Shown here piece by piece: positions 3,718 to 25,370 of a DNA stretch of 38,026 nt. Each line of letters starts with the position of its first letter. Positions within the stretch are counted from its first letter, which is position 1. The stretch lies in the IMG/VR virus record IMGVR_UViG_3300026367_000093, positions 1 to 38,026 of that record. The stretch is one strand, 5' to 3'. The translations under genes and the position numbers were made by a program. Under the pieces are notes generated by a model, which saw only the letters and a list, made by a program, of their open reading frames with translations, ran no database searches and was not told the origin of the DNA. The DNA comes from a virus.

Positions 3718-4179
3718 TCAGCCCTCCACCTTTCTGGACAGCGAGACGCTGCTGTCGGCGACCATGATCCGGTAGCCCAACACGCCGCGACGAAGCCATT
3801 CAACGCTGATCTCGGCAGGCGCTCCGGTCTCTGGCTCGGCCCAGGCCAAGGCTTCAGCCAGCCAGAACTCGCACATCAGCCTGGTGGTCTCGGTGTGCTT
3901 GGCGCGGTTGAGCAGCCAGAGCTTGGAGCCGGTCCGTTCGCCAGCAGGGTTCAGTCCATCGGCAATCGCGCCACGGCGCTCGGAGAAGCTGGATGGCGTC
4001 AGAAACTGCGTGCGGCCGTCCGGCAACGGATCATCAGGTGCGGCGCGGCGGTCAAGTCCGATTGACAGCAGGATGGCGGGAATGGGCGTTTCATCGATCA
4101 CCAGATCGCCATCATCACCTATGACCAGGTCGCACCGGCGCAGCTTGTTGTCATAGTGAAGGGCGAGATCGAAGAACAT
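3718..4179 (-). CDS. Baseplate protein, Mu gp46 family
   Basis: A 153-residue protein of the GP46 family, a small baseplate wedge component. The diagnostic N-terminal pattern is present: D-L-V-I-G-D-D-G-D-L-V-I-D-E then AILLSIGLDRRA (about residues 18-46), followed by a Trp/Glu-rich C-terminal half. It is the first gene of a predicted late transcript. The -10-like TAGCTT is at 4186-4191, and six bases later comes the ATG at 4179, so the mRNA may start at the A of the initiator codon (leaderless). No Shine-Dalgarno sequence could fit in such a message. Confidence 0.85.
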   Translation of the reverse strand: MFFDLALHYDNKLRRCDLVIGDDGDLVIDETPIPAILLSIGLDRRAAPDDPLPDGRTQFLTPSSFSERRGAIADGLNPAGERTGSKLWLLNRAKHTETTRLMCEFWLAEALAWAEPETGAPAEISVEWLRRGVLGYRIMVADSSVSLSRKVEG

Positions 4180-4185
4180 GTCGCG

Positions 4186-4231
4186 AAGCTATCGCGCGCG
4201 CGCAATGCTGTTCATGCCCGCCAGCGCGGGC
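4186..4231 (-). promoter_or_regulatory. Predicted late promoter upstream of gp46 (activator dyad plus -10)
   Basis: On the minus strand: dyad GCCCGC-GCTG-GCGGGC at 4216-4231, then ATGA (4212-4215), 20 nt, and -10-like TAGCTT at 4186-4191; predicted +1 at 4179. A C/G-alternating stretch just before the -10 (GCGCGCGCGC) also occurs in the tape-measure copy. There is no recognisable -35, as expected for a promoter needing a Mor/C-type activator. Same spacing as three other sites in the late region. Confidence 0.75.
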
Positions 4232-4232
4232 G

Positions 4233-4769
4233 TCAGTCCATAATAGGGTTCGGCGGAGCGGCGGCACCAGGATGATCATGTGTGTTGTACCTGTCGCGCA
4301 TTTCCTGCATCGAGCCGTTTTGGTCCGAGATATTGCCGGTTGCGGTGATGTCTCCGGTGACGGCGACGACCGTGCATTCGATAAACACGCCGGTGTCGGT
4401 TTTGATCGTGATGTTCGCGCCGGTCTTGATGTCGAGTGACCCTCCAGCCGTCATCACCGCCTTGTCGCCGTGCTCATTGTACATGCCGACTTCACCGGAT
4501 TTCAGGCCACCCATGCGTTTGGACGGGTTGCCGATCGGCATGACGACCAGGTCGCCCTCATCGCCGCCGACGGCAAAGACCATGGCAAGCGCACCATCCT
4601 CTGGCACATGGCTGGCAAAGCCATAAGGTTGCGAAATCTCGACATCATCACGCCAGACCCCGTCTGCAACCTCGACCGAGGCAGTCTGGGTTTCGCCGTC
4701 ATCCTTGACGTTCTTCAGGGTCACCCGGCGCACCATGCCGCGCACCTTGTCGGCAACATCCTTTTCCAT
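4233..4769 (-). CDS. Baseplate spike protein, Mu gp45/gpV-like
   Basis: A 178-residue central spike protein. The N-terminal ~90 residues form the OB-fold-like baseplate assembly domain (QPYGFASHVPEDGALAMVF, then GDEGDLVVMPIGN), followed by a repetitive beta-strand spike (DIKTGANITIKTDTGVFIEC and onward). Near the C-terminus is T-H-D-H-P (His164 and His166). In Mu and P2 spikes an H-x-H motif binds iron at the membrane-piercing tip, so the same is expected here. ATG at 4769 overlaps the gp44 stop. The predicted gp46 promoter dyad starts immediately downstream of the stop. Confidence 0.9.
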   Translation of the reverse strand: MEKDVADKVRGMVRRVTLKNVKDDGETQTASVEVADGVWRDDVEISQPYGFASHVPEDGALAMVFAVGGDEGDLVVMPIGNPSKRMGGLKSGEVGMYNEHGDKAVMTAGGSLDIKTGANITIKTDTGVFIECTVVAVTGDITATGNISDQNGSMQEMRDRYNTHDHPGAAAPPNPIMD

Positions 4770-5974
4770 CACAAAGCCTCCGCTGTGCCGTCGAGACTGC
4801 CCGAGCTTTTTGGGCTCTTCTTGCCTGATTTGTTGCGGCGGCGGTTGCCGGTCGGCCCCTTGTCAAAGGCTTCCGGACTGATGATCGTGAGTTCACTGAT
4901 CCTGCCGCCGTCGTCCTCACGATACGCCACCTTCGAGATCAGCATGTCGCGCTCGATATCGAGAAAAGCATCCGAGACCATGGCCATCTGGTTGATCTGC
5001 CAGAGCTTGCCATCGACATCGAAGCCCTTGACCGTATGGGTGACCTCTTCGCTTTCGGCGCGCGCCGTGCGCATCCGCCAGTCCGCTTCATCCGCCGCCG
5101 ACACATTGTCCGCCTTGGACCGGGCAAGATGCACCACCGGGCGGTGCCGGGTGATCTCGCTATCCCTGGACCGGCCGGTGGCCACGGTTCCCTTGCGCTC
5201 TTTCTCGGTGGCCGATCCATCGCCGTCTGTGCGGTCCACCGGCGCCAGCGGTTCGGCCGTGACATCGAGGCTGGCGGATCCGCGTGCCTTTCCGGCTTTC
5301 TCTCCCTGGCCGCGCACGATTGTTTCGCTATGGCGGTCCTTGTGGCTGAAGGCTGCGCGTGAGGTCAGGACATTGCCCGGCAAGCTCAGATCGGCAGGCG
5401 CGCGTGACTTGCCGGTTCGGGTGATGACAATGCCGCCAACGCCGTCGGAGAGGATCAGGGCATGGCGGGATCGGGCACCCTTCTCGATAGCCGAGAACCC
5501 GGTCTCGGCCAGGTCAAGCGAATAGCGCTGGAACGGATCTCCGGTATCGATTTCCGTGCGGACAGTGAGGCCGTAGGGTGCCGCGATCCGTTTGGCGGCT
5601 TCCTCCAGCTTGACGTTCCTGAATTCGGCCGGCCCGTCCGTCATGGCAGCACAATCGATAAGGTCGCCGGTCTTGTCACGGCCGGAGATCGTGACACTCG
5701 CCTGGCGATCACCGATATCGACATCGACATTTTCAATGGAGCCCTTGAGAACCGGTTGACCGTTGATCAGGATCTCGACCGCCGGTCCCGGCCTGAGTTT
5801 GTAATGAGCCCCCTGAGATGCATATCGAAGCGCCTTTGCCGAGCGGTACCGGTCGCGAAACGTGAAGTTGAAGCTGCCGGAAAAGTCCTTCAGGTCGCGG
5901 CTGACCTCGGCGCTCAGCCATTGATCATAGAGGACGCCTTCGATCAGCAGCGTGATGCCCTTTGACCTGGCCAT
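4769..5974 (-). CDS. Baseplate hub protein, Mu gp44/gpP-like
   Basis: A 401-residue hub protein, equivalent to T4 gp27 and P2 gpD, forming the ring from which the spike projects. Family-typical features are the N-terminal half with SRDLKDFSGSFNFTF and GPAVEILINGQPVLKG (about residues 26-75), the SVTISGRDKTGDLIDCA segment (about 92-110), and the later LWQINQMAMVSD. The C-terminal ~30 residues are Lys/Arg/Ser-rich and probably disordered. It sits between gp43-like and gp45-like genes exactly as in Mu, with overlapping ends. Confidence 0.9.
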   Translation of the reverse strand: MARSKGITLLIEGVLYDQWLSAEVSRDLKDFSGSFNFTFRDRYRSAKALRYASQGAHYKLRPGPAVEILINGQPVLKGSIENVDVDIGDRQASVTISGRDKTGDLIDCAAMTDGPAEFRNVKLEEAAKRIAAPYGLTVRTEIDTGDPFQRYSLDLAETGFSAIEKGARSRHALILSDGVGGIVITRTGKSRAPADLSLPGNVLTSRAAFSHKDRHSETIVRGQGEKAGKARGSASLDVTAEPLAPVDRTDGDGSATEKERKGTVATGRSRDSEITRHRPVVHLARSKADNVSAADEADWRMRTARAESEEVTHTVKGFDVDGKLWQINQMAMVSDAFLDIERDMLISKVAYREDDGGRISELTIISPEAFDKGPTGNRRRNKSGKKSPKSSGSLDGTAEAL

Positions 5975-7221
5975 CAGATCAGTTCCGCGACTTCGATTGC
6001 GCCTGCCTCGATGGCCGATGGATGACGTGGGTCATTGCGGGCAACGATGTCGCGATAGGCCTCCTCGATGTGTGACGGCGTGTCGCCGGCCACATGCAGC
6101 GCCAGTTGCCAGGCATCAAGGCTGCGCGACGGACGGAAGACCAGAACATCGGGCAAGCGGCCGATCACTTCGTTGATGTCGCTGACAATCGCCGCCTGAA
6201 GATCGCGGGCTGCACTGACCAGCGCCGATGTCTCCGCCTGAAACAGCGTGCCGCCAAACCCTTCGAGGGTGTCAATCAGCCGATCGGTGGTATCCAGAGC
6301 CGCCGTCCGGTAATCAAGCGCCTCCCGTCTTGAGGGAAAGGACACATAGGCCGTCTGCACCGCGCCCTGGGCAAGCAATTGCGCCGCAGCGGCAACAAGA
6401 AGCGCGCGGTCACCGTCCGATGGTGCTTCGATAGCCGATGCGATCAGGCTTGATCCGAGCGCCTGGCTGATGGTCAGCAGGCTTTCGGGCGAAGGGTCTT
6501 GTGCCGCCACCGCCTCGGCAGCAGGCGCGACGGCCGGCGTGAATGAAGCCTCGGCAAACATCGATGCCGCCGTCGCGATCCATTGGCCATACTCGGTGGG
6601 CGTTCCTGGTGTGGCTTTGAGGATGGTTGATCTCAGAGCAGGCATGAATGCTGCGGAACCGGTCGGCGATGTCTGGGCTGCAATCGCAGCCGTGACGATG
6701 CGGACCGAGCGCGTCACCGCAGCCGAACGGGATGCCGAAATGACGCGGGTTCCCACGGATGACGACAACTGCGAAGCCAGAGCAATGATCGACCCGATGA
6801 CCGAGGCAATCGAAAACAGGCTCAACCCGACAGGGCTACTCGCCGCCACCTTCTTGAAGCGGGCGCTGATGCGCACCACCCGCAGCTCCTGCGTCGAAAA
6901 CGAGAGCAGCGCCGGCTCATCCATGATGACCGTCATCGGGCCGAGCCATGGATGCATCAGGGTTGCAGGTCCGGCCGTCTCGAAGGCGCGTTGAAGCTGG
7001 GCAGCTTTGACCTTGTAGTCATCGCCGATGATCAGAGCCTCGATGCTGATCAGGTTCGGCAGAACGCCGAAATCATCGTAGGCCGCGGCATCGACGCCAG
7101 GAAACAGATATTCGAGCACCCTGCGGCCGGGCTCGCTGGCCGTGTCCAGGACATGAAACCCGATGCCACGATAGGACGCCGGCAGCAGACCGGGCAATGT
7201 ATCGAGACTGTCAAACCGCAT
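5974..7221 (-). CDS. DNA circularisation protein N family, Mu gp43-like
   Basis: A 415-residue tail/baseplate protein of the 'DNA circularisation N-terminus' family. The N-terminal signature is clear: LLPASYRGIGFHVLDTAS, GRRVLEYLFPG, then a Y-D-D-F-G block and GPATLMHPWLGPM (residues about 12-96). The remainder is Ala-rich and helical. Despite the family name, the Mu protein is injected with, or attached to, the DNA end and is also a tail component. It lies between tape measure and hub genes, 3 bp from the tape-measure stop. Confidence 0.88.
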   Translation of the reverse strand: MRFDSLDTLPGLLPASYRGIGFHVLDTASEPGRRVLEYLFPGVDAAAYDDFGVLPNLISIEALIIGDDYKVKAAQLQRAFETAGPATLMHPWLGPMTVIMDEPALLSFSTQELRVVRISARFKKVAASSPVGLSLFSIASVIGSIIALASQLSSSVGTRVISASRSAAVTRSVRIVTAAIAAQTSPTGSAAFMPALRSTILKATPGTPTEYGQWIATAASMFAEASFTPAVAPAAEAVAAQDPSPESLLTISQALGSSLIASAIEAPSDGDRALLVAAAAQLLAQGAVQTAYVSFPSRREALDYRTAALDTTDRLIDTLEGFGGTLFQAETSALVSAARDLQAAIVSDINEVIGRLPDVLVFRPSRSLDAWQLALHVAGDTPSHIEEAYRDIVARNDPRHPSAIEAGAIEVAELI

Positions 7222-7224
7222 GAT

Positions 7225-9789
7225 CTAGACCCTCCCGACGATGCGGCCATTGTTACCGACCTTGACCGCCTTGTTGTCAGACGTCGCCGAGGTCACCTTG
7301 CCGGGTCCGTCAACCTTGATGGTGACGGCGACATTGGCTTTCGATTGACCGTTGAGCGCGCCTTGAGCCGGCAGCATGTTGTTGTTGGCCGGCAGCAGAG
7401 GCGGCCGCGGCGAATTGCCCAGGCCCGCCGTTCCACTGGTTCCACCGGGTGCTTCCGGTCCTTCTCCGCTGCCGGGTAGGAATTTGAATGCCCACGCGGG
7501 CAAGACACTGGAGAGGTCAATTGTGCCGATAGCTTCGAGAATGCGCCCCGGCAACCCACTGAACCAAGCTATCAGCTCGTCAAACTTCGACTTGATGCCG
7601 TCGATCATGCGCTGTCCGACATCGAGGCCGATGACATACATCTCACCCGGAAGCGCCTTGGCGCGAGCAATCAACGCATCGATGCCGGCCGATGCATCAT
7701 CCCACATCTGCAGCGCATCTTTTGGCACCAGTGACTTCCATTCGATCTTCCCTTCAGCCAGATCAGCAAGCGTTTCGACAAAGTGCGCCGTTGCATCTGC
7801 ACCGGCAGCAATGGCTGATGTGAACAACTCCAGGCCGCCGCCGTAGAGACTTCCCAGTCGCTTGAAAAAACCGTCGAAGCTAGAGGTATCGATATCGATC
7901 ATGCTGAAAAATGCTTTGGCCAATCGGCCCATGGCATCAGCGTAGCGGGCAAGCGAGTTGACCGACGAACCTATGTTTTCGCCGATCTGACCAAGCGATG
8001 GTGCAAAACCGGTGCCGAAGTCCTTCAGCGCCTCCCAACCTGTCTTGATGCCTTTGAGCGCGATCTCAAGCGCCTGGAATGCGGCCACTTTGGCATCATC
8101 GATCGTCAACGCGGACAGATCGAAGTCGAATTCAAAGCCCTTCGCAAAGCCCTTGAAGAGGCTTTGAAGATTGTTCCAGCCGCCCTTTATGTCCGCCCAG
8201 GCAGAGTTCAAACCGCTTCGAATGGTAGGCCCATATCGATCCGCCATTTCGCGGCCGGCAGAGATGATCCGTTTGCCGCCATCGCGCACGCCATCGGCCA
8301 GATCAAAGAAACCGCGTCTGGCGCGGTCCCACAGGCGCGACAGGCGGGGTCCGTAGGTGGCCCAGTTCTTGTAGATATGAACCGCGCCCGCCGCGATCCC
8401 GGCGAACACCAGTCCGACCGGACTGATCAGGGCAAGCAGCGCGGCAAAACCGACCCCGATGATCGGCAGGACAACACCCAGCACACCAAGGCCGGTGGCG
8501 ACCAGGACGGCGGCACCCGCAAAACTGAGCGCCTGGCGCACCATGCCACCCGTGCTGTCATCAAGCTCGCGCATCCATATGAGCGCGGACTTGAGGTTGT
8601 CGCTGATCATCGGCAACCAGGAGCCAAACGCAAAGCCAACTTCGCGCGCGGCTTGGGTTCCAATCTCCTTGAAGATGATCAGTTGCGCAGTGAGCCCTTT
8701 CATTTTGGTCTCGAAATCCTCATCGATGATGCCCGCTGTGGCTTTGGCCACTTCTTCCTTTATGCGCTTATATTCCTCGACATTGCCGAGGAACGGGATC
8801 AGGAAATCCATGACCTGGACGTCCTGGAACAACTCGCCCAGCGCGCCGGCGCCATGGATCTTCTCCAGCTGCTCGCGGACATGACCAAGCGCATCAGCGC
8901 CTTCGAGACCGTTGTCCTTGGCGGCTTTCATCAGTTTCTCGATCTCGCCGCCTGAAACGCCAGAGAGCTTGGCGATTTTCTGCATGACGGCTTCGACCGG
9001 GTTGATGCCCTTGGTCGCCGCATCGCGCATGACGGCCTCGATGTCGACGCCGGCCTCGGCGAACTTCTTGACAGTCATCGGAGCAAGGATCTTCGACAGG
9101 AAGTTCTTCAAATTGTTGGCGGCCTCGGCCGGCTCCGACGTGCCCTTGCGGGCGATCTGCAAGGCCGCACCGAGGAAGTTGACCGCCTCACGTCCGGTCA
9201 CCCCGAACTTTGCCATCTGGCTGGTCAGCGTCGGAAAATACCGCGCCATGTCCTTGAGCTCGAATGCTCCCTCCTTGCCCGCAACGACCAGGCCGCCAAG
9301 CGCATCTTCGAGCTGATCTGCCGGCAGCTTGAGGGTCTGCAGCAGCGACGTGGCTACATTTGCCATGTCTGCCATAGCAGCACCGGATGCTGTCGCAGAG
9401 CGGCCGATGGTGCCGATCGAGGCGTCGACCAGGTCCTGGTTGACACCGGCAGCAATCATCTGTCCTGCCGAGGCGGCGATGTCAGCTGAAGATTGCGCCA
9501 CACTGAGCGCCAGATCCTCATATTGCCGCTTGGCCACATCAACAAAATCAAAGGCCGCTTGCCCGGATAGGTTCTGTGTCGCGGCGATGTCTAGCAGCTG
9601 TTGCTGGAATGCCGCCGCTTCCTTGATAGGCCCCATGAAGGAGATGGCAGCAATTGCCGTTCCGACCAAGCCGATGCTGCGGGCAACATTGCCGATTGAC
9701 CTCAGCCCTGCCGTCAACCGGCGGAGCGGGCTCGACAGCATGTCCTTCATGCGAACGATGACGTCGAGGGTCATATTGCGATTGGACAT
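7225..9789 (-). CDS. Tape measure protein, Mu gp42-like
   Basis: An 854-residue protein that sets tail length. Residues about 30-400 match the phage tail tape measure pattern for TP901-type proteins (AAFQQQLLDIAATQNLSG, ASAGQMIAAGVNQ, GKEGAFELKDMARYFPTLTSQMAKFG). A hydrophobic stretch follows at about residues 420-475 (AAVLVATGLGVLGVVLPIIG and after), which is the usual membrane-interacting part. The C-terminus ends in short beta-like repeats. The predicted late promoter at 9823-9868 gives a leader of about 27 nt with a purine-rich AGCGGGA before the ATG. Confidence 0.92.
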   Translation of the reverse strand: MSNRNMTLDVIVRMKDMLSSPLRRLTAGLRSIGNVARSIGLVGTAIAAISFMGPIKEAAAFQQQLLDIAATQNLSGQAAFDFVDVAKRQYEDLALSVAQSSADIAASAGQMIAAGVNQDLVDASIGTIGRSATASGAAMADMANVATSLLQTLKLPADQLEDALGGLVVAGKEGAFELKDMARYFPTLTSQMAKFGVTGREAVNFLGAALQIARKGTSEPAEAANNLKNFLSKILAPMTVKKFAEAGVDIEAVMRDAATKGINPVEAVMQKIAKLSGVSGGEIEKLMKAAKDNGLEGADALGHVREQLEKIHGAGALGELFQDVQVMDFLIPFLGNVEEYKRIKEEVAKATAGIIDEDFETKMKGLTAQLIIFKEIGTQAAREVGFAFGSWLPMISDNLKSALIWMRELDDSTGGMVRQALSFAGAAVLVATGLGVLGVVLPIIGVGFAALLALISPVGLVFAGIAAGAVHIYKNWATYGPRLSRLWDRARRGFFDLADGVRDGGKRIISAGREMADRYGPTIRSGLNSAWADIKGGWNNLQSLFKGFAKGFEFDFDLSALTIDDAKVAAFQALEIALKGIKTGWEALKDFGTGFAPSLGQIGENIGSSVNSLARYADAMGRLAKAFFSMIDIDTSSFDGFFKRLGSLYGGGLELFTSAIAAGADATAHFVETLADLAEGKIEWKSLVPKDALQMWDDASAGIDALIARAKALPGEMYVIGLDVGQRMIDGIKSKFDELIAWFSGLPGRILEAIGTIDLSSVLPAWAFKFLPGSGEGPEAPGGTSGTAGLGNSPRPPLLPANNNMLPAQGALNGQSKANVAVTIKVDGPGKVTSATSDNKAVKVGNNGRIVGRV

Positions 9790-9822
9790 GGGTTCCCGCT
9801 GCGCATGGGTTCAGGGTGGCCC

Positions 9823-9868
9823 AAATTATCGCGCGCGCGAAACCGTGATCATGCCCGCCACGGCGGGC
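9823..9868 (-). promoter_or_regulatory. Predicted late promoter upstream of the tape measure gene
   Basis: Dyad GCCCGC-CGTG-GCGGGC at 9853-9868 (extendable to seven pairs with a two-base centre), ATGA at 9849-9852, 20 nt ending in GCGCGCGCGCGA, -10-like TAATTT at 9823-9828, predicted +1 at 9816. It lies in the gap between the frameshifted end of the tail chaperone (9874) and the tape measure start (9789). Spacing from dyad to -10 is identical to the other three copies. Confidence 0.75.
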
Positions 9869-9873
9869 GGGCA

Positions 9874-10031
9874 TCAGGTTTTGGTTGTGTTTTCTGCGCG
9901 CCAGGCCATGACGCAGTTCCACCAGAAGATGGCCCGAGAGGCGTCGAAGCTTTCAATCTCCGACGCCGTAAAACCGGTGCCGTCAGCCAGCGCGCCGAGG
10001 ATTATCGGCCAGTTCTCGGGCCACTGCTTAA
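9874..10031 (-). CDS. Frameshift extension of the tail assembly chaperone
   Basis: A reading frame without its own start that continues the chaperone after a -1 shift. It encodes 51 residues (KQWPENWPIILGAL, ADGTGFTASEIESFDASRAI, FWWNCVMAWRAEN) before a TGA at 9874-9876. The Trp-rich FWWN...W composition and position are those of tail chaperone C-terminal extensions that recruit the tape measure. With the shift the fusion would be about 204 residues. Without it this ~130-bp stretch is unexplained. Confidence 0.82.
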
Positions 10032-10487
10032 AAAATGGTTCAGCACCTGGCCGGCGTTCTTGATGTCTGCCGCATCGAGCCGGTCAAACAGCGCGTTCAT
10101 CACCGCCTGGTTGATCCGCGTCGCACGGGCAAACGACACGACGGCCATGTCCTTGTCCTCTGCGGCGGCGATGGCGCGCTGGTCCGCACCGACCAGCCGA
10201 TGGAAAGTCAGATCCTTGAACACCCGTTCGCGGATCTTGTCATTCTTTTTGGTCCGCAACGTCACTGACGCATAAAGCGGAAGAGTGACAGATCCGTCGT
10301 CGTTTTTGATCGCATGCTTGGGCAGCTTGTCGAGAGGATCTACATCTTCGTCGATCACGCCGTCATCGCCGTCCTCACCATCATTGATGGCAAGCGGGCC
10401 ATCTTCGTTGATGATCGCGCCAGCCTCGGACGAAGAGGTGTCCTCGTCGAGATCGATCTCGATATCCTTGCCGGTCTTGCCGCTCAT
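10002..10487 (-). CDS. Tail assembly chaperone, Mu gp41-like
   Basis: A 161-residue protein between tail tube and tape measure. The first ~55 residues are very acidic (DGEDGDDGVIDEDVDP). The rest carries the Phage_TAC/gp41 pattern (VTLPLYASVTLRTKK, RVFKDLTFHRLVGADQ). It chaperones the tape measure during tail assembly and is absent from the mature particle. A slippery heptamer near its 3' end allows a -1 shift into a conserved-looking extension. ATG at 10487 overlaps the tube gene stop by 4 bp. Confidence 0.88.
   Translation of the reverse strand: MSGKTGKDIEIDLDEDTSSSEAGAIINEDGPLAINDGEDGDDGVIDEDVDPLDKLPKHAIKNDDGSVTLPLYASVTLRTKKNDKIRERVFKDLTFHRLVGADQRAIAAAEDKDMAVVSFARATRINQAVMNALFDRLDAADIKNAGQVLNHFLSSGPRTGR
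10029..10035 (-). other. Programmed -1 ribosomal frameshift site (T TTT TTA)
   Basis: On the minus strand the zero-frame codons CAT TTT TTA contain the canonical X XXY YYZ heptamer T TTT TTA. A -1 slip here moves ribosomes from the frame that stops at 10002 to one that stays open to 9874 and encodes a Trp-rich chaperone extension. Mu itself uses a -2 shift at the equivalent place; many other tailed phages use -1. I did not identify a clear downstream pseudoknot. Confidence 0.82.
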
Positions 10488-10849
10488 GACAGGATCTCCT
10501 CAGGCGCAGATGCCGCCCATTTGAGTTCGATCTTGCCGCCTTCGCCGCCGGTGATTTCCGGAATGTCGCCATCAAGGAAAGCGTCATACATGACGAAGGT
10601 CTGGCCAGTGTCGCAGACCACCTGCAACTCTCCTTCGCCGGGGTCCCAGGTGTTGCCCCAGCGCTGCCCGGCTTCGAGTTCCGTGGTGGCCATGACTTCG
10701 GAGCCCTGGAACTCCTGCGCCCGGCCGACCTTGCGGCCATAGGTGACCGCGTTGTTCTTGATACCGCCGACGCGGATCTTCGCGCCTTTCTCGACGGGGA
10801 TGTTGCGCCCCCGCCAGACGATATCGACGAGACCTAAAACTTGTGTCAT
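10484..10849 (-). CDS. Tail tube protein, Mu gpM-like
   Basis: A 121-residue tube protein of the Mu/FluMu family. It starts with a short hydrophobic segment (VLGLVDIVWRGRNIPVEKGAKI), then GRAQEFQGSEVMATTELEAG and LQVVCDTGQTFVMYDAFL, and ends in a beta-hairpin region (GGEGGKIELKWAA). It sits between sheath and tail chaperone, as in Mu. Overlap of the stop with the chaperone ATG indicates coupled translation. Confidence 0.9.
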   Translation of the reverse strand: MTQVLGLVDIVWRGRNIPVEKGAKIRVGGIKNNAVTYGRKVGRAQEFQGSEVMATTELEAGQRWGNTWDPGEGELQVVCDTGQTFVMYDAFLDGDIPEITGGEGGKIELKWAASAPEEILS

Positions 10850-10863
10850 CGGTTAGTCCTTTC

Positions 10864-12351
10864 TCAGACCTGGAATTCGAGCGAGCCGGCAAAGACCATG
10901 AGGTTGCCGACAATCTGGACCTGCTGGCGGCTTTCCATCCGGTTGCGATCATCAACGGAGCGGGTGAAGACGCTTTCCTTGATGGTACGGCTGACATCCT
11001 CGATCCAGACCCTCTCGCCATAGAGGTTGCAGCGGGCCGCCCAGGAGGCAAGCATGCGCTTGGGCGTCACCACGGCCGTGCCGGGATCTTCGTCATTGTC
11101 ATGCCGGGTGGCAAAGGAAGCCGCGCTGTCGTCATCGACCAGCTTGGAGCGCGGATACATCAGCGAGATATAGGCGCTCCAGTCGTAGCGGATGCGGCTC
11201 ATCGTGGCCGGAACCATGATGTCGAGCCAGGCCCGATCGGCAATGCCGAGATTGCTGGTCTTGTAGGTGGTGATCATGCGGCTGATCGTGACCGTGCCAT
11301 CCGAAAGACAATCGAACGTCGAGATGCCGGTGCGCAGCAGCAGATCGTTCTCCTCATCGATAAACCGGTCGGCCGTGTCGGGTGCCTCCACGCCGGGCAT
11401 GACAAGAGACCGGAGCTGGCGTGCCGGATCGTTGTTGAGATGAAACGCTGCCAGACCGCAGGCGACGGCCGCGATTGCCCAGGCACTGGTCGGGCTCTTG
11501 TTCAGTCCGCCGGCGGTCAGAAAGGCGTTGTTGGTCAGATCGCCAAAGGTACCGAGCTGGCCGTAGGTGCCGCCCTTGAAGACGAAGCCATGGCAATCGA
11601 GCTTCGCGGTCGCCAGATACCGCACCCGGAGGAACTCGGCGGTCGCCGCTATGTTGGTGGCATCGTTCCAGGGATGGGTGATCTTGGTGAACCAGGTGCT
11701 GGTCATCAGATCGAGCGCGTCCTGAACATCCGGATTGCCGGCACCGCCAGACATGGCGGCGATTGCCACGGCCAATCCAGACGGCAACGGCTGCGCCTTG
11801 GTGTCGACGCGCAAGTTGATCTCGTTGCCAACCTCGCCGCCATTGCGCGCGGTTACCGTAACTACGCCGAGTGCTGATCCGGCTGTGGCCACCATGTCGA
11901 GATCCGCAGTAATGGCCGCCGCCAGCTTTGTGGCGAGCGTGGTGACGGTGTCGGTAGTCAGCGCAGTCAGGCGCACCTGACGTCCGCCGACCTTGAAGCG
12001 CAGCACGGTCGCGGCTGACACGGCACCGGTGAAGGTGAAAGTGCCGGTGGCCTTGACCGCACCACCGTCATCGGCAAGTGCAGTCACGAACAGAGGCGTG
12101 TTGCGGTTGGCGCCCTTGAAGAAGGCGACCTGTTCGGCACCGATCGAGCCACGGCCAAACAGCGCGATGGCTTCCTGGGCACGGGTGATTTCGACTATGT
12201 CGCCAGGGGCCAGCGTGCCCGTGGCAAGCTTCTGGCCAATGATGCAGACCTTTTCCGGGTAAGGAAGCACGCCGACATTGCGATAGTTCGGCTTGATTTC
12301 AAGCAGGGTTGCCGGTTCGAGGCGGTCAACGGGGATTTCGTCGAAGTCCAT
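10864..12351 (-). CDS. Contractile tail sheath protein, Mu gpL-like
   Basis: A 495-residue sheath protein, showing that the phage has a contractile tail. Family features include an N-terminal PGDIVEITRAQEAIALFGRG-type segment (about residues 50-75), a variable middle domain with repeated small-residue beta strands (about 95-195), a central NDPARQLRSLVMPGVEAP block, and a C-terminal domain with CNLYGERVWIEDV and a final beta strand (VGNLMVFAGSLEFQV). Gene order and size match Mu L. Confidence 0.93.
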   Translation of the reverse strand: MDFDEIPVDRLEPATLLEIKPNYRNVGVLPYPEKVCIIGQKLATGTLAPGDIVEITRAQEAIALFGRGSIGAEQVAFFKGANRNTPLFVTALADDGGAVKATGTFTFTGAVSAATVLRFKVGGRQVRLTALTTDTVTTLATKLAAAITADLDMVATAGSALGVVTVTARNGGEVGNEINLRVDTKAQPLPSGLAVAIAAMSGGAGNPDVQDALDLMTSTWFTKITHPWNDATNIAATAEFLRVRYLATAKLDCHGFVFKGGTYGQLGTFGDLTNNAFLTAGGLNKSPTSAWAIAAVACGLAAFHLNNDPARQLRSLVMPGVEAPDTADRFIDEENDLLLRTGISTFDCLSDGTVTISRMITTYKTSNLGIADRAWLDIMVPATMSRIRYDWSAYISLMYPRSKLVDDDSAASFATRHDNDEDPGTAVVTPKRMLASWAARCNLYGERVWIEDVSRTIKESVFTRSVDDRNRMESRQQVQIVGNLMVFAGSLEFQV

Positions 12352-12570: not shown

Positions 12571-12573
12571 GCG

Positions 12574-13607: not shown

Positions 13608-13631
13608 GAGATTTTCCTGAGGTGGTTGGTG

Positions 13632-13654
13632 CGGCCGGCCCGGTGAGCCGGCCG
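13632..13654 (-). terminator. Intergenic GC-rich hairpin without U-tract
   Basis: Perfect 8-bp inverted repeat CGGCCGGC / GCCGGCCG around a 7-base loop, between the small membrane gene and the gp36-like gene. There is no T-run after it on the minus strand, so a classical intrinsic terminator is doubtful. An RNA-stabilising or pausing structure is equally likely. Confidence 0.4.
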
Positions 13655-13678
13655 AGAATTCAAGCTGGCTTCAGAGCG

Positions 13679-13924: not shown

Positions 13925-13950
13925 TCTCATTCCTTCAGTTTGGCTTGGCT

Positions 13951-15401: not shown

Positions 15402-15410
15402 GTCAGCTCC

Positions 15411-15800: not shown

Positions 15801-15801
15801 G

Positions 15802-16839
15802 TCAGGCCTCCTTTCCGAAGAGGGATTTGGCGGTGGCGTCGTAGGCCACCGCGTCGACGCCCATCATGGCGAGGATCTTGTCATCCTCATCCGTGCGGAC
15901 AGCTTCTCCCGACTTCGGCGCGGGCCGCTTGCCCAGACCACCCGCATGGAGCGACGGCATCAGGGCAAGTTCGCTTTCGACGTCGGCCGGGTTCTTCATG
16001 TGACGCGCAATCATATGCTCGCGCAGCGCCGGCACGACCTTGCCGCCCTCAATCGCCGCCTCGATCACATTCACGGCCTTGTCCTTGGCTGTCGACGTTG
16101 CAAGGGTGGTCAGCTGGCTTTGCAGCGAAGTGATCTGGGTGACCAGCTGCGCCTTGTCGGAATCATCACCGCTGGCAACTGCTTTCGCCTGGACGGCGGT
16201 GACCAGGGCATCGCCCCCGGCATCCGCACCGACGCCAGCGGCTTCCGCTACGCGGGCCATCAGGGCTGTGTGGACGGTGTTGGCCGCATGGGCTGATGTG
16301 ACTGCCGCAATCACGGCTGCCTCGTCAGCGGTTTCGGGAAGGCCAAGCGCCTTCCGAAGCTCTTCAAGCATCGTTTGTTCCTCTTGTGAGTGGAGCGATT
16401 TCAGGGAAGCAAGGTTGGGTTCGTTGGTCAGCGCCACGCGCAGGACCTTGTCGACCCGGTAGGGTTTTGCGGCCGTGTGCAGCAGCACGGGAGAGAGGTA
16501 GCCATAGGCCTTGCCCTCGACGAGAGCCTTGCCTTCTGCTGTCCATTCGACCCGGCCCCAGACGCCATCCGCGCGGGCCTGCATCTCAACGATCCAGCCG
16601 CGTGCCGGTGATGGATGGCCGGACTTGCCGGCCAGATCAATCGAATGGTTTTCGTCGACCGGGATCTTGGTGCCGGTCGAGTTGAACTGAGCCACAAGTG
16701 CTTCGCGATCCTCGACCACGTAAGGGCCGCGGCCATCGACGCCGCCGAACGACTTCTCAGCGGGCAGCAGGTGCAGCCACTCGGGCGCACCGGCAGCAGC
16801 ATTCATCGAGACAACAAGGGAACTGGTTGTTTTGTTCAT
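15802..16839 (-). CDS. Head maturation protease with scaffold region, Mu gpI-like
   Basis: A 345-residue protein of the Mu-like prophage protease family. The N-terminal ~150 residues carry the protease part (WLHLLPAEKSFGGVDGRGPY, IPVDENHSIDL, AYGYLSPVLLH); the last of these is typical of gpI. The C-terminal part is helical and Ala/Thr-rich and probably gives the scaffold (Z-like) product by internal start. Preferred ATG is 16839: six bases before it ends a -10-like CAATTT, so the mRNA may be leaderless. A longer in-frame start at 16875 would lie upstream of the predicted transcription start. Confidence 0.88.
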   Translation of the reverse strand: MNKTTSSLVVSMNAAAGAPEWLHLLPAEKSFGGVDGRGPYVVEDREALVAQFNSTGTKIPVDENHSIDLAGKSGHPSPARGWIVEMQARADGVWGRVEWTAEGKALVEGKAYGYLSPVLLHTAAKPYRVDKVLRVALTNEPNLASLKSLHSQEEQTMLEELRKALGLPETADEAAVIAAVTSAHAANTVHTALMARVAEAAGVGADAGGDALVTAVQAKAVASGDDSDKAQLVTQITSLQSQLTTLATSTAKDKAVNVIEAAIEGGKVVPALREHMIARHMKNPADVESELALMPSLHAGGLGKRPAPKSGEAVRTDEDDKILAMMGVDAVAYDATAKSLFGKEA

Positions 16840-16845
16840 GGCGGG

Positions 16846-16891
16846 AAATTGCCATGACGGTTGCGATGACGTCATGCCCGCAAGCGCGGGC
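16846..16891 (-). promoter_or_regulatory. Predicted late promoter upstream of the protease gene
   Basis: Dyad GCCCGC-GCTT-GCGGGC at 16876-16891, ATGA at 16872-16875, 20 nt, -10-like CAATTT at 16846-16851, predicted +1 at 16839, which is the A of the protease ATG. Mu has its P-I promoter at this place. The GC-alternating spacer of two other copies is absent here, but the distances are identical. Confidence 0.72.
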
Positions 16892-16914
16892 GGGTCGTCG
16901 GGATATGATGGGGA

Positions 16915-17421
16915 TCAGCGGCGGGCGGAGTATCTATCCAGAAAACCGAACACGGTTTCCGAAATCATCACCTCGTCTTCGGCAGATATACCGAGGAAGG
17001 GCCGAGCCGACAAGGTGACCTTGTCGACCTTGATCAGACTGCCGCCAATCCGGAACCAGAGATGGGTGGCAGACTTCGGAACGATGTCGCCACCGAACTG
17101 GTGAATGCCGGCATAGATGACGTTGGTGCCGACGAGAACTTCATCATTTCCCGGCCGGGAGTTGATGCTGTCGCGAAGCCTGCCGCTCTCGCTGAGGATG
17201 CGCGAATTGCGCTTGCCGGCGGCATAGGCCGTATTTAGCGCAGCCCAGGCTTGACCTTCCGGGTCTGTCTGGGTGACGAACCGCATATGGGTGGAGCCAA
17301 CGAGACCGGTCCCGATCGCCGCCATCACCGGGGTGGTGTTGCCCATCATCCGTTCAAGCTGCCGGAAACCGCGCCGCACCGCCGCGTCCCGAACCTGCAT
17401 GGTGATCGAGACGCCGCTCAT
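16915..17421 (-). CDS. Virion morphogenesis protein, Mu gpG-like
   Basis: A 168-residue protein of the phage virion morphogenesis family (Mu G, tail completion). Motifs include STHMRFVTQTDPEGQAWAAL (about residues 43-62), SGRLRDSIN, the NVIYAGIHQFGG signature (about 100-111) and RPFLGISAEDE. The C-terminal Arg-rich end runs to the edge of the predicted protease promoter. Start overlaps the gpF-like stop by 4 bp. Confidence 0.9.
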   Translation of the reverse strand: MSGVSITMQVRDAAVRRGFRQLERMMGNTTPVMAAIGTGLVGSTHMRFVTQTDPEGQAWAALNTAYAAGKRNSRILSESGRLRDSINSRPGNDEVLVGTNVIYAGIHQFGGDIVPKSATHLWFRIGGSLIKVDKVTLSARPFLGISAEDEVMISETVFGFLDRYSARR

Positions 17422-18482
17422 GGCTTCTTCGCCATGCTCTTGAGCGAGGTCACCCGGATATCAGTGCCTTTGTCGTCGCGGATAACGTCCATCGCCATGC
17501 GCCAGGACTGGCCGTCGATATCACCGGTGATGATGTGTTGTGCGCCATCGCCTTTGACCACGCGGCCGGACTTTACCAATTGCCGGGGAATGGTTCCGTA
17601 GGCAGCAGGTGTTGCATCCAGCTGGTTGGCCAGGCTTCTGATCGTGCCGGCAGACAGACGGATCTCGGTGCCGGCCTTGATCTCAAGGCCTGCCGCCGCC
17701 TCTTCTCCAGCAACGGCCACCGGCGTCCAGCTTCCGTCCGGCCATCTGCCCTTCAGCGACGAATTGACGAAGGCTGCCACCTGCGCCTCATCCGCCGAAA
17801 TCGCCACCGGTCCCGGTGCTGTCTGCTCCAGCCAAGCCTTGCCGGGATTGTAGGCAAACGACGGATCGACGCCGCGTGGTTGATCAGTGCCGAGCTGGTC
17901 AAGATCCGGCGAGGCGTCGGGCCCGGATTTTCCCAGGCGGCGAAGACCAGGCTGGGACACCGGAGAGGCAAAGCAGCCGCAGCGGAAACCGTTCGGCGGA
18001 TAGTTGGTTGTCCAGAAGGGATCGTCGGCCGACAGACACAGGTCATCCCAGTCCTTGTGATCAACGCGCGGATGCACAGCGCCGGAGTGATTGTATTGCC
18101 AGTAGGGAAAGGCCGCGAGCGTGTCGGGCGCGCTCATCTGGGCGTAGCGGCCGGCGGCATAAGCGGTTCTCAAATTGGTTTCAAAGATGGTTTGAGTGCG
18201 CCAGCCGCGCTCGCCCTTGTAGGACCAGCCGTGCCGTTTGACGATTGCGTCGAAGTCTTCGCGGAATGTAGCGAGCGTCGTGCCCTGTTCCAGCGCCTTG
18301 GAGATCGAAGCCTGGAAGTCCTCGACGATGGCGCGGCTGTTGGCGCCCGCCACCATGAACATCTTCGAATGCGCCCCATTCCAGACATCGCGCCAGCTTT
18401 CCGTCGGGATCGCTGTCTTCTGCCTCAGAAACGCAATCGCCTCATCAAACGGAAGATCCAGCGCCTGAGCCGTAGTCGTCAT
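17418..18482 (-). CDS. Head morphogenesis protein, Mu gpF-like
   Basis: A 354-residue minor head protein of the Mu F/SPP1 gp7 family, attached to the portal. Diagnostic segments are RTQTIFETNLRTAYAAGRYAQM (about residues 103-123), the HPRVDHKDWD..CLSADDPFW block, and YPPNGFRCGCFASPVS, with the conserved Cys pair. The start at 18482 has no obvious Shine-Dalgarno sequence, and an in-frame stop lies about 13 codons upstream. A 118-bp gap separates it from the portal gene. Confidence 0.9.
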   Translation of the reverse strand: MTTTAQALDLPFDEAIAFLRQKTAIPTESWRDVWNGAHSKMFMVAGANSRAIVEDFQASISKALEQGTTLATFREDFDAIVKRHGWSYKGERGWRTQTIFETNLRTAYAAGRYAQMSAPDTLAAFPYWQYNHSGAVHPRVDHKDWDDLCLSADDPFWTTNYPPNGFRCGCFASPVSQPGLRRLGKSGPDASPDLDQLGTDQPRGVDPSFAYNPGKAWLEQTAPGPVAISADEAQVAAFVNSSLKGRWPDGSWTPVAVAGEEAAAGLEIKAGTEIRLSAGTIRSLANQLDATPAAYGTIPRQLVKSGRVVKGDGAQHIITGDIDGQSWRMAMDVIRDDKGTDIRVTSLKSMAKKP

Positions 18483-18600
18483 GCCCGGTCGCCGATCTGG
18501 ATCAAAATCAAAGCGTCCTCAAAGGCCGTGGGCGCGTTTTGCGAGCCAGCGCCGGGGTTCGTGGCCCGGAGACTGTCAGCGGGCCTCTGTGGCCCCTTTC
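18483..18600. other. 118-bp gap between portal and gpF-like genes
   Basis: Longer than the other packaging-gene junctions, which mostly overlap. It holds a short GGGCC/GGCCC inverted repeat near 18583-18598 and no clear ribosome site for the gpF-like gene. I see neither a promoter resembling the late set nor a convincing small gene. Confidence 0.4.
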
Positions 18601-20181
18601 TCATGACCGTGCTTTCAGGCTGTCGATCAGGGTTGCCTGACCTGCCAGATGGGCAAGCGCCATCCCCCGCGCCATGGCCTCGGTCAGTTGATCCGGATCG
18701 AGATCGAGACGGGACAGGCGCTCGGCCGCATCGCGAAGATCGCTCGCCTGGCTCAACGCCAGACGCACCTCTTCAAGCATGCCGTTCATGGCGCCTGCCG
18801 CATCCTGTTCAAGCCGTTCCGTCAGGGCGTCAACCAGATCAGTCTGGTTCGTGGTCGCAAACAGCGAGGTCAGCGCCTGCCTTGACGTCTGGTCCTGTTT
18901 GCCAGCTTCCGGCTTGCCGGGCTCGGGCACTGGCGTCACCGGTGCCCGGCCGCCGATCAGGATGGCGTTCGGCTTCGGAGCCGGAATGCCGAGACGGTCG
19001 CGCAGATAACTCTCGTCTGCGGTGAGACCGTGGGTCGCCAGCTTGTCGAAGGCGCTGGCAAATTCCTCAAGCGGTACTTCATCCGGCCGGCCGATCCTGA
19101 TTTTGGGATAAAGCTCCTGAGGCCCGAAATTGAAGGCAACAATGTTTGGGATCAGCTGGGCATTGAGCGTCGACGAAATCGACAACGCGTCGGAACGCTC
19201 GATGTCCTCCTGGACAAGACGGTGTTCCTTGCTGACTGCATGTCCGCCGGAGATCGCATCCGTCGACGTCGTCTGGCCAAGCACGAGTTTCGACACCTGC
19301 TGATCAAGCCAGTTAGCGCGCCGCTCGTACATATCCGTCGAGCTCGACTTCGATCCGACCTCATGAAACTCGATCAGCATGTCGCGCGGAACGATCGCCG
19401 CGCAGTCGCCGGCTATGCCAGAGACCGCCCGCCAAAGAACATCCTTCTCGGCCTCGGTTGCGCCGCGTCCATATTTGCCGATGCGGATCGGCTGGCCATA
19501 GTTCTGGCAGAAGATGGCCCAGTCCTTCACGGTGAAGGATTTGAACATCCACGCCCACAATGCGGTGCGGGCAATGCCGGACCGGATCGTCAGGCCCGAT
19601 TTTGTCTTGTGGCGGTGAACGACGAACTTGTGGGCGGTCAGCGCAACATTGGTCACGCCCTCGCGCAGCAGCAGGGTCTCGCCATCCTCGCGGTCAAAGG
19701 TGAACCAGCGCTGGGTGCGCCAGGTCAACTCGCGCGGGCAGAGATGACCGGCATGATATTTCCAGTCGATCTCCATGATCGAGATGCCCTTGCCGATCGC
19801 GTCGAGCATGTCGAACAGCGATGCCCTGAGGATCTCGTCATTTACCCAGGACTGGATCAGCTCGGCGTGCTTCTTGTGATCAGCACTGTCAGACGCGGCA
19901 GCGACCGTGATCGGCAGTTGCGCCACCGATCGCTTCCGGGTTGCCATCACGGCGGCATAGTGGAGATCCCGCTCCTCGATGTCCTCAGCAAGCTCGAAAT
20001 AGGCTTCAGGTTCGCCCTCCGCTGCGGCCCGCAGGATGTTGGCGAGCCGCTGCGGCGTGAGCCCGTCGGCCGGGTGGCCGGAGATCGGCTGCCTGACGCC
20101 GCCGACCTGGGCTCCGGCCATTTCTCCGGTAAGGGACTTGCCGGGGATGACGCGGTTCAGCCAGTCGCGAAGCGATGCCAT
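18601..20181 (-). CDS. Portal protein, Mu gp29-like (DUF935)
   Basis: A 526-residue portal protein forming the DNA entry ring. Family features: an N-terminal LRDWLNRVIPG-type start, QRLANILRAAAEGEPEAYFEL, ERDLHYAAVMATRKRSVAQLP (about residues 70-90), GKGISIMEIDWKY, WAIFCQNYGQPIRIGKYG (about 225-242), and a conserved LGQTTSTDA stretch with SKEHRLVQEDI after it. ATG at 20181 overlaps the terminase stop. A GTG one codon earlier is possible. Confidence 0.93.
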   Translation of the reverse strand: MASLRDWLNRVIPGKSLTGEMAGAQVGGVRQPISGHPADGLTPQRLANILRAAAEGEPEAYFELAEDIEERDLHYAAVMATRKRSVAQLPITVAAASDSADHKKHAELIQSWVNDEILRASLFDMLDAIGKGISIMEIDWKYHAGHLCPRELTWRTQRWFTFDREDGETLLLREGVTNVALTAHKFVVHRHKTKSGLTIRSGIARTALWAWMFKSFTVKDWAIFCQNYGQPIRIGKYGRGATEAEKDVLWRAVSGIAGDCAAIVPRDMLIEFHEVGSKSSSTDMYERRANWLDQQVSKLVLGQTTSTDAISGGHAVSKEHRLVQEDIERSDALSISSTLNAQLIPNIVAFNFGPQELYPKIRIGRPDEVPLEEFASAFDKLATHGLTADESYLRDRLGIPAPKPNAILIGGRAPVTPVPEPGKPEAGKQDQTSRQALTSLFATTNQTDLVDALTERLEQDAAGAMNGMLEEVRLALSQASDLRDAAERLSRLDLDPDQLTEAMARGMALAHLAGQATLIDSLKARS

Positions 20182-23384: not shown

Positions 23385-23597
23385 TCATCTGTCCAGTTCG
23401 CAGGCTGTCTGACACTCTATGCAACGCTCCGCGAAGGGTGCGGCGCGGCGGCGTTCTTCCGGGATCGCGCGTCCGCAATCCCGGCAGTCTGTTCGCCCGA
23501 ACCCGGCCACCAGTCTGGTCGCCTGTTCAAGCTTGAGGTCGCGCTCGCGCGCGACCCTGGCTTCTGCCTGTTCGATCATGAAATCCGAGGCGCTCAC
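23385..23597 (-). CDS. TraR/DksA-type zinc finger protein
   Basis: A 70-residue protein with a four-cysteine zinc finger (C-R-D-C-G at about residues 38-42 and C-I-E-C about 17 residues later) after an N-terminal helix. This is the size and layout of TraR-like proteins, which bind in the RNA polymerase secondary channel and mimic DksA with ppGpp. The GTG start overlaps the stop of the 3-TM holin-like gene. It may tune host or late transcription; Mu-like phages often carry one here. Confidence 0.82.
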   Translation of the reverse strand: MSASDFMIEQAEARVARERDLKLEQATRLVAGFGRTDCRDCGRAIPEERRRAAPFAERCIECQTACELDR

Positions 23598-24136
23598 GGC
23601 TTGCCCCGCTTGAGCACCGCGTCGATGACATTCCGGCCGAGATCCTTGACGGTGTGGCCGCCCATGTAGAGCGCCATGAACCACGAGGTGAGCGTCATCA
23701 GGGTCGCGACATCGATCATGCCGATCTCGACGCCGCCGACGCTTCCAATGCGCTGGTTGGCGATCGGGCCAACGATGATGCGCCAGATCCAGAAGATGGC
23801 GAGCAGATACATCCAGCCGTAGCGCCAGAAAGACTGCCAGAAGCCTTCCTTGGTTTCGGCCTGGAGCAGCGCGAACTGGCCTTCAAGCCCGGCGGCATAG
23901 AGCGCGATCAGCTCGGGCATCTCGGCTTCGGTCGCATTGACTGCATCTTCAAGCTCAGTGCGTTCGATGGCTGGAAGTTCCGCTGGCTCAACGCCCGCCC
24001 TTTCGGCAACTGTCTTGATGACGGTCTCGACAAGTGCCCCACCGGTTTTGCCGATCTTGGGTTCAAGGATCTTCTTGATCAGCGGCAATCCGAGATCCGT
24101 GGCGATGCCGAGGATTATGCCAGCCAGTGCGCTCAT
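23594..24136 (-). CDS. Three-TM holin-like protein (gene-transfer-agent type)
   Basis: A 180-residue protein with an N-terminal hydrophobic start (MSALAGIILGIATDLGLPLI), a Glu-rich cytoplasmic-type helix (about residues 47-85), and then two membrane segments: YLLAIFWIWRIIVGPI (about 110-128) and ATLMTLTSWFMALYMGG (about 142-160). This resembles the GTA_holin_3TM family. It lies just after the lysozyme and a small two-TM protein, forming a lysis cassette. ATG at 24136 overlaps the upstream stop. Confidence 0.75.
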   Translation of the reverse strand: MSALAGIILGIATDLGLPLIKKILEPKIGKTGGALVETVIKTVAERAGVEPAELPAIERTELEDAVNATEAEMPELIALYAAGLEGQFALLQAETKEGFWQSFWRYGWMYLLAIFWIWRIIVGPIANQRIGSVGGVEIGMIDVATLMTLTSWFMALYMGGHTVKDLGRNVIDAVLKRGKP

Positions 24137-24315
24137 TTGAAAACCTCTCCGAGAGTGAGAACCAGAAGCCCGGTCCAAACCAGGGCTACGATCAGCCAGG
24201 CAGCAGCCCGCGTTCCTTTTCCTCCAAGCAGACAAAGGAACGCGAGACCTGACGAACCCAGGGTGAAGACGATCAGCATGACGACGATGACGCTGGCGCC
24301 GAGAAAGCCGATCAT
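24133..24315 (-). CDS. Two-TM small membrane protein, candidate holin
   Basis: A 60-residue protein composed almost wholly of two membrane segments (about residues 5-28 and 37-57) joined by a short basic GGKGTRA turn. The size and layout are those of class II holins. With a second membrane protein following, one may be the holin and the other an antiholin or regulator; sequence alone cannot assign them. Start overlaps the lysozyme stop by 4 bp. Confidence 0.68.
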   Translation of the reverse strand: MIGFLGASVIVVMLIVFTLGSSGLAFLCLLGGKGTRAAAWLIVALVWTGLLVLTLGEVFK

Positions 24316-25295
24316 GCCCGACCACCCTTGCGGAGCGTTCCCTCACCCTTGATGGCGATTGCCAGCTCGTCTCGGTAACGCCAGGCGAGATAGATCCCAC
24401 CGACAACCAGGACAGCGACACTGCCGTAGAGGATCCAGTCGCCATATCCGCTGACTGCCGCGACCTGGTCTGCAACCCCGGTGGCAGCTCCTGCCGAAGC
24501 GCTCGTGCCGGTCTTGACGGTTTTGGTCTTGAGATCGATCACTCGCTGCAGCTGATCAAGCGTGCCGCGTCCGAGCACACCGTCGTTGTCAAGCTGCGGA
24601 TGCTGCGCCTGGAAGCGGCGCGTTGCCGATTCGATCAGATCCTTGTCCGAGCGAGATGACGCAGCCAGATAGTCAAGCTGGATCAGCCAATCGACAGCCT
24701 GGCCGAAGTCATCGGCTCCAAGCCGCCAGGACGGCATGACCGCCTTGATCTCATTCGGCGCAGTTGTTGCCGGTGCTTTCACCCAGGCAGGCCAACGATT
24801 GAACTCCATGATTGTGGAAGCTTCGGCGCGGCGGCGCACGAGGCCCGGAAGCCGCCGTCCCCTGGCCGTGGTCGCGGTGACCTTCAGACGCCGCGCCGCG
24901 TCCTTGATGTCTCCGCGCACGAGAGCGGCGAACCACGTCCATTTGGCAGCGCCCAGGCCGCAATTGAACAACATGTCGGAAGCCGCCGCCTTGGCATGTG
25001 GTGTGGCGTTCGGTGCGCGCTTCATGACCGGAACGGCATACTCCGCGTCGATCAACGCCTTGAGCAGAAAGAACGCATCAGCTTCAGCGATCGTTTCACC
25101 AAGCTTGAGCTTGGAGCCTTTGTTGATCAGCCACCACTCCCGGAAGATTTTCGATCCCCAGGTGAAACCGAAACCGATGGTGATGACGCCAGCCGGACAG
25201 CGGTAGGCCCGCAGCACCTTGCCTTCATGTTGGCCGGTGAAAGGAATGAGGCGCGGGTCATAGCCAAACTGCGCCGTAGAGAGTTCGGATTTCAT
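24312..25295 (-). CDS. Lysozyme (GH24-like) with peptidoglycan-binding domain and C-terminal TM
   Basis: A 327-residue endolysin. Residues 18-45 carry the T4-lysozyme-type triad pattern Glu24, Cys33 and Thr39 (E-x8-C-x5-T, in HEGKVLRAYRCPAGVITIGFG), followed by NCGLGAAKW in the helical part. A PG-binding-1 repeat lies at about 195-262 (LDNDGVLGRGTLDQLQRVIDL). At about residues 285-308 is a hydrophobic segment (WILYGSVAVLVVGGIYLAW) followed by basic residues, so the protein may be tail-anchored. It is the first late gene, behind a predicted activator-dependent promoter. Confidence 0.88.
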   Translation of the reverse strand: MKSELSTAQFGYDPRLIPFTGQHEGKVLRAYRCPAGVITIGFGFTWGSKIFREWWLINKGSKLKLGETIAEADAFFLLKALIDAEYAVPVMKRAPNATPHAKAAASDMLFNCGLGAAKWTWFAALVRGDIKDAARRLKVTATTARGRRLPGLVRRRAEASTIMEFNRWPAWVKAPATTAPNEIKAVMPSWRLGADDFGQAVDWLIQLDYLAASSRSDKDLIESATRRFQAQHPQLDNDGVLGRGTLDQLQRVIDLKTKTVKTGTSASAGAATGVADQVAAVSGYGDWILYGSVAVLVVGGIYLAWRYRDELAIAIKGEGTLRKGGRA

Positions 25296-25324
25296 AAGCC
25301 TGATCCCGGTTTGATGTCACGGGC

Positions 25325-25370
25325 AAGCTACGGAACGCGGGCAAATCCAGTCATGCCCGCTAAGGCAGGC
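25325..25370 (-). promoter_or_regulatory. Predicted late promoter upstream of lysozyme (Plys equivalent)
   Basis: Dyad GCCTGC-CTTA-GCGGGC at 25355-25370; the one T in the left arm would make a G-U pair in RNA but is an imperfect DNA dyad. ATGA at 25351-25354, 20 nt, -10-like TAGCTT at 25325-25330, predicted +1 at 25318, giving a leader of about 23 nt. The dyad starts 9 bp past the stop codon of the Mor-like gene. Mu has Plys at the equivalent position. Confidence 0.75.

Follow-up and report, generated by a model that had tools for sequence, protein, structure and literature searches.

Late-region dyads of a Mu-like phage as very probable late-promoter sites for its Mor/C-family activator, with operators that differ from phage to phage

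The closest described systems are found in phage Mu. Mu Mor binds a 16-bp dyad that extends from −51 to −36 and is centered at −43.5, at a promoter with a −10 but without a −35 element, and contacts the C-terminal domains of the polymerase α and σ subunits (PMC4287176). Mu C switches on lys, I, P, and mom (PMC4461284). The subject here is a set of four dyad elements in the window, i.e., the whole analyzed stretch of 38,026 bases, one complete IMG/VR virus record (IMGVR_UViG_3300026367_000093) with Mu-like gene content. Judged from sequence and from the analogy with Mu, the four elements are very probably late promoters turned on by the phage’s single Mor/C-family activator (25380–25751), which would bind a phage-specific dyad.

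All four elements lie on the minus (late) strand and read GCCYGC-N4-GCGGGC-ATGA-N20-hexamer. They and the genes they precede are as follows.

25325–25370, minus strand: predicted late promoter 1 (lysozyme); dyad 25355–25370, ATGA 25351–25354, spacer 25331–25350, −10 TAGCTT 25325–25330.
16846–16891, minus strand: predicted late promoter 2 (protease); dyad 16876–16891, ATGA 16872–16875, −10 CAATTT 16846–16851.
9823–9868, minus strand: predicted late promoter 3 (tape measure); dyad 9853–9868, ATGA 9849–9852, −10 TAATTT 9823–9828.
4186–4231, minus strand: predicted late promoter 4 (gp46); dyad 4216–4231, ATGA 4212–4215, −10 TAGCTT 4186–4191.
24312–25295, minus strand: lysozyme, first gene of late unit 1 (PF00959).
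15802–16839, minus strand: Mu-like protease of the gpI type (Mu-like_Pro, PF10123).
7225–9789, minus strand: tape measure protein (PhageMin_Tail, PF10145).
3718–4179, minus strand: gp46 baseplate protein (GP46, PF07409).

The original prediction had given these dyad coordinates, an ATGA and exactly 20 nucleotides (nt) before the hexamers TAGCTT, CAATTT, TAATTT, and TAGCTT, and the same four downstream genes; all of this is borne out, the spacing at four of four sites and the gene identities by the Pfam matches listed. The dyads are perfect at three sites; in the fourth, at 25355–25370, which reads GCCTGC-N4-GCGGGC, the left arm is off by one base. Searched for in the window, the pattern GCCNGCNNNNGCGGGCATGA gives four matches, each of them on the late strand; 100 dinucleotide shuffles gave none. 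The dyad by itself, with two mismatches allowed, is at background (10 matches against 9.2 expected), so the signal is the combination of a tight dyad, ATGA, and constant spacing. The four-site pattern is real.

The dyad center lies 32 bp ahead of the hexamer, or at about −44.5 relative to the predicted +1. A −10 is present, and a consensus scan of positions 1–20000, which took in three of the sites, called no σ70-type promoter with two hexamers there, in keeping with the claim that a −35 is absent. Dyad center, −10, and, at the three scanned sites, lack of a −35 are those of a Mu-type C-dependent late promoter. Predicted leaders are about 23 nt before the lysozyme ATG at 25295 and about 27 nt to the tape-measure ATG at 9789. 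For promoters 2 and 4, the predicted +1 is the A of the protease ATG at 16839 and of the gp46 ATG at 4179, respectively.

The Mu C operator is TTAT-N6-ATAA. When Mu Plys, PI, and Pmom are anchored on ATAA by our own reading, the right half-site lies 24 nt before the −10 and the center at +31. As in the Mu late promoters Plys, PI, PP, and Pmom, the window has lysis and protease (I) units, a dyad upstream of the −10, and a poor or missing −35, and its activator is homologous to C by profile. In contrast, the window operator, GCCCGC-N4-GCGGGC, does not match TTAT-N6-ATAA, and the protease and gp46 messages are predicted to be leaderless. The suggested correspondence with the places of the Mu promoters stands for lys and I; the other two units of the window begin at tape measure and gp46 rather than at P and mom. 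Mu Pm, the Mor-activated promoter, offers a second comparison, its 16-bp dyad being centered at −43.5 without a −35 and that of the window, also 16 bp, at about −44.5 without a −35. Pm drives the C gene, whereas the Mor-like protein of the window would drive the late genes directly. Mu uses a cascade of Mor and then C, with a middle operon; one Mor/C-like open reading frame (ORF), and no separate middle operon, was found in the window.

The activator gene is the following.

25380–25751, minus strand: Mor/C-family activator gene; GTG start, with an ATG at 25730 also possible; recognition helix ITESGVERLFKRV.

Its product matches PF08765 with 29.5 bits (cut-off 24.9), which places it in the family, and the phrog_836 profile, “late transcriptional activator”, with an E value of 3e-23. 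A profile of 23 relatives aligned by hhalign with a Mu Mor/Mu C/B3 Mor profile gave a probability of 90 and an E value of 1.5e-6, and PF08765 is matched at E ≤ 0.01 by 18 of the 23. In the crystal structure of Mu Mor, a dimerization domain is combined with a C-terminal helix-turn-helix (HTH); the AlphaFold2 model of the window protein has a predicted local distance difference test score of 89.7 and an HTH at the C terminus. No second Mor/C-like ORF was found in the window. The gene directly precedes lysozyme at the early/late junction, as it does in relatives and in phages RR1-B, RcapMu, and RC1. This position, immediately before the first late gene, would join the early and late phases without Mu’s middle operon.

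When viral contigs were scanned for the exact 20-mer, at least 118 stretches were returned. In Mu-like contigs, the sites stand mostly 49–62 nt upstream of protease, mostly 50–54 of gp46, 72–74 of tape measure, and mostly 75–78 of lysozyme, and these constant distances persist where the downstream protein is only 30–50% identical. A relaxed pattern typically finds three or four late-strand sites per full-length phage in 50 Mu-like records; the reversed control pattern finds none. The exact-motif scan was not counted as proof, because many of its matches are due to chance or are like repetitive extragenic palindromes (REPs), and loci were gathered by protease or Mor homology instead. The phage could have picked up such sites from a chromosome, as REP-like palindromes: the exact 20-mer is dispersed in some alphaproteobacterial genomes, with 16–19 copies in G384 and G424 and loops that are mostly CTGC, TTTC, or CTTC. 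Yet only 1 of 45 look-alikes in non-Mu contigs has a hexamer at +40, versus 55 of 84 sites in Mu-like contigs; the look-alikes have a different left flank (GGAT); and the sites in phages keep to the late strand and to the same downstream genes, where many different dyad sequences are found besides this one. A REP origin is hardly credible. In the alphaproteobacterial chromosomes G234, G381, G384, G424, G139, and G325, the palindrome GCCCGC-CTGC/TTTC/CTTC-GCGGGCATGA is a dispersed REP-like element nearly identical to the phage operator.

Circularity was avoided by collecting 80 viral contig loci by protease homology alone. When any 6-N4-6 dyad before a [TC]A...T hexamer was scored in the 56 non-redundant upstream regions, 25 loci had it at a spacing of 24 nt, against 0–3 loci at every other spacing and at most 3 in control coding regions. 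The motif with its fixed spacing, expected before the same genes in relatives, is present in dozens of related phages. Of the four sites, those at lysozyme, protease, and gp46 form a core; the tape-measure site is optional, being found in only part of the relatives. As a universal feature it was rejected, since among the variant phages only L158 and L160 carry it. Also rejected was absence of the motif from the first relatives found through Mor (Rhodoplanes, 45–49% identity), in which the variant ACCCGCCGCGGCGGGCGTG is followed by a 20-nt spacer and TAGTGT; before protease these relatives have GCCCGC-N4-TCGGGC.

Ninety-one loci have both a Mor-like gene and a protease gene, and 48 representatives share less than 80% Mor identity. 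In the 91-locus set, the lysozyme and protease dyads agree within a phage and differ between phages. In the 28 phages that do not belong to the canonical group, the match averages 15.9/20 within phages versus 11.0 between (0 of 20,000 permutations), and coding controls never reach 16 (0 of 48). An operator defined from the lysozyme and protease sites only was then sought at gp46, where it matched at 16–20 of 20 positions in 14 of 19 phages; own operators averaged 16.95 and others 12.55 (0 of 5000 permutations). Distant sites that agree within a phage and diverge between phages require a trans-acting reader specific to each phage; neither terminators nor chance would produce such a pattern.

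Terminators deserve mention because the GC-rich stems stand right behind upstream stop codons, and the dyads could be intrinsic terminators of the upstream genes, the −10-like hexamers being incidental or constitutive promoters. In RcapMu and RR1-B, the sequence after the dyad is T-rich (TTTTGCTTT, ATTTTCTTTTT), and there the dyad may also terminate. In the window and most relatives, however, the stem is followed by ATGA and by no T run, unlike a terminator; the spacing to the hexamer is fixed; and identical stems at distant sites of one phage that differ between phages need a reader of sequence. We consider the terminator explanation highly improbable.

The same arrangement is found in isolated phages. 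In Rhizobium phage RR1-B and Rhodobacter phages RC1 and RcapMu, lysozyme is preceded by a Mor-like gene, and each phage repeats a dyad of its own at lysozyme and protease. Their dyads differ from that of the window. RR1-B has GACCGGAACC..GTTCCGGTC; TGACCGGAACCGAGTTCCGGTCA is found in it four times, ahead of lysozyme, protease, tape measure, and a baseplate gene, a further resemblance to the window. RcapMu has CCCCCGGAC..GTCCGGGGG, and CCCCCGGACCTGTGTCCGGGGG is found in it twice, once ahead of lysozyme and once ahead of protease. RC1 has CCACAA..TTGTGG, i.e., CCACAA-N4-TTGTGG-type sites before the same two genes, with hexamers at center +32. No operator description for these dyads, including those of RR1-B, RC1, and RcapMu, was found in the open-access literature searched. 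Phages close to RC1 are said to lack Mor (PMC5488378); in contrast, RC1 has a late transcriptional activator annotated in its own RefSeq record. Pseudomonas phage B3 repeats a TTTTCGG..CCGAAAA dyad before lysis, protease, and tape-measure genes, but its mor lies in a divergent early region. No repeated dyad was found in FoX1, and in Mwe-Yong1 one pair only was found, away from the lysis gene.

The reader of the dyads is most likely the Mor-like protein, as suggested by the position of its gene, immediately ahead of the lysozyme site in the informative loci, and by co-variation. Over the 33 phages compared, operators differ more the more the Mor proteins do (r = 0.69 between the two distances), and the correlation persists after control for each of six other genes, namely those for protease, portal, gpF, gpG, small terminase, and TerL (partial 0.57–0.68, nominal p < 0.001). 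With Mor fixed, the partial correlation with the operator is about 0 for protease, portal, gpF, and small terminase (−0.02 for the last), −0.17 for gpG, and 0.21 for TerL. A Glu at position 3 of the recognition helix together with Glu or Asp at position 7 goes with a GCGG[GAT]C core: 15 of 18 phages with these residues have it, versus 2 of 15 without them; L300, L319, and L332 have a near-identical helix with Asn at position 7, and the cores are changed in all three. Glu at position 3 alone was tried as a separator of operator classes and dropped (p = 0.17). There are at least 15 operator specificities. The original proposal of a new specificity for a Mor-like protein therefore keeps its substance, in that the dyad differs where the recognition helix differs, but the specificity is one of many rather than a single novelty.

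The dyads might instead be read by some other regulator of the phage or by a factor of the host, given that binding by Mor is itself deduced and that the phages encode further DNA-binding proteins (small terminase, repressor, Ner-like). Of these, the comparison with Mor covered the small terminase. Operator distance nevertheless tracks Mor and not small terminase, portal, or protease; a conserved host factor would not account for operators that change between phages; and the change from Glu/Asp to Asn at position 7 in otherwise near-identical helices goes with altered cores. Another reader is very unlikely.

Several points weigh against the assignment of the dyads to the Mor-like protein as late-promoter operators. 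The distance from dyad to hexamer is 1 bp longer in the window than in Mu (center at +32 versus +31, by our own anchoring). A PDB fold search with the activator model gave generic HTH domains only and not the Mor crystal structure, which a PDB sequence search likewise did not retrieve. No shared lysozyme/protease dyad was found in about 15 of the 48 representatives, the gp46 prediction failed in 5 of 19 phages, and the lysozyme site is degenerate, with its geometry retained, in L129, L132, L134, L138, and L044. The co-variation tests were made on related sequences, and their p-values overstate independence; the helix-residue rule is post hoc, drawn from related sequences as well, and is offered as a hypothesis only. 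On balance, the interpretation of the elements as Mu-type late promoters of the Mor-like protein is supported by the conserved layout, the helix-dependent dyads, and the presence of only one Mor-like gene in the window.

By analogy with Mu Mor and C, we infer that the activator, as a dimer, binds TCATGCCCGC-N4-GCGGGCATGA, a palindrome with its center about 44.5 bp ahead of +1, and that it recruits or activates host polymerase at the −10 without a −35. The resulting late units would begin at lysozyme, protease, tape measure, and gp46, and the protease and gp46 transcripts would begin at the A of the ATG. The mechanism would follow that of Mu; new are the operator sequences, the single-activator wiring, and the activator–operator co-variation.

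One point missed in the original prediction is that 6 nt separate the hexamer from the ATG at the protease and gp46 genes of the window. Among non-redundant relatives, this distance is 6–8 nt at 16 of 18 protease sites and 5–8 nt at 13 of 14 gp46 sites. So short a distance puts +1 at the start codon or within one or two bases of it, and the protease and gp46 mRNAs are predicted to be leaderless. The longest protease ORF reaches 16875, starting at the ATG within the operator’s ATGA, and relatives start at the equivalent of the downstream ATG; 16875 is a false start that automatic annotation would pick. In phage B3 (L398 19835–19880), the annotated protease start at 19857 overlaps the predicted operator, and an ATG further downstream, preceded by CACTCT, looks like the true leaderless start.

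The spacers of two predicted promoters contain alternating tracts.

4193–4203, minus strand: (GC)n tract adjoining the −10 of the gp46 promoter, in the window sequence.
9830–9839, minus strand: (CG)n tract adjoining the −10 of the tape-measure promoter, in the window sequence.

The tract directly upstream of the gp46 and tape-measure −10 is kept even where the dyad differs, and B3 has it too. (CG)3 or longer occurs in the spacer at 13 of 14 gp46, 3 of 4 tape-measure, 4 of 18 protease, and 0 of 3 lysozyme sites. It is possibly an element controlling spacer structure or melting, comparable to the T6 run in Mu Plys and Pmom. Downstream of the Mor-like gene in the subgroup L044, L129, L132, L134, and L138, the −10 is TAAAAC, and the leader after it contains a long inverted repeat, CGTAAAAC...GTTTTCGCGGAGGG, whose folding may cover the lysis gene’s ribosome-binding site. 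The lysis cassette of the window has a gene for a DksA-like zinc-finger protein (phrog_54) at 23385–23684 on the minus strand; a DksA-like protein that binds host polymerase and is made early in the late phase could be relevant to late transcription.

As far as the literature searched shows, Mor/C late control is known in molecular detail from Mu. The motif of one window extends to a general rule for Mu-like phages, mostly alphaproteobacterial as far as the named relatives show: locate the Mor-like gene, read the adjoining palindrome, and predict the remaining late promoters. More than 30 natural activator–operator pairs are at hand for testing a DNA-recognition rule, with the isolates RC1, RcapMu, and RR1-B among the carriers, and the late mRNAs of a capsid protease and of a baseplate gene are predicted to be leaderless. 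It is a serious possibility, short of probable, that one rigid promoter scaffold carries, in transposable phages, a diversified set of mutually insulated activator–operator pairs whose specificity lies in a few recognition-helix residues (Glu/Asp at position 7 with GCGGGC, Asn with changed cores). Divergence of the pairs could be driven by selection against cross-activation between co-resident prophages.

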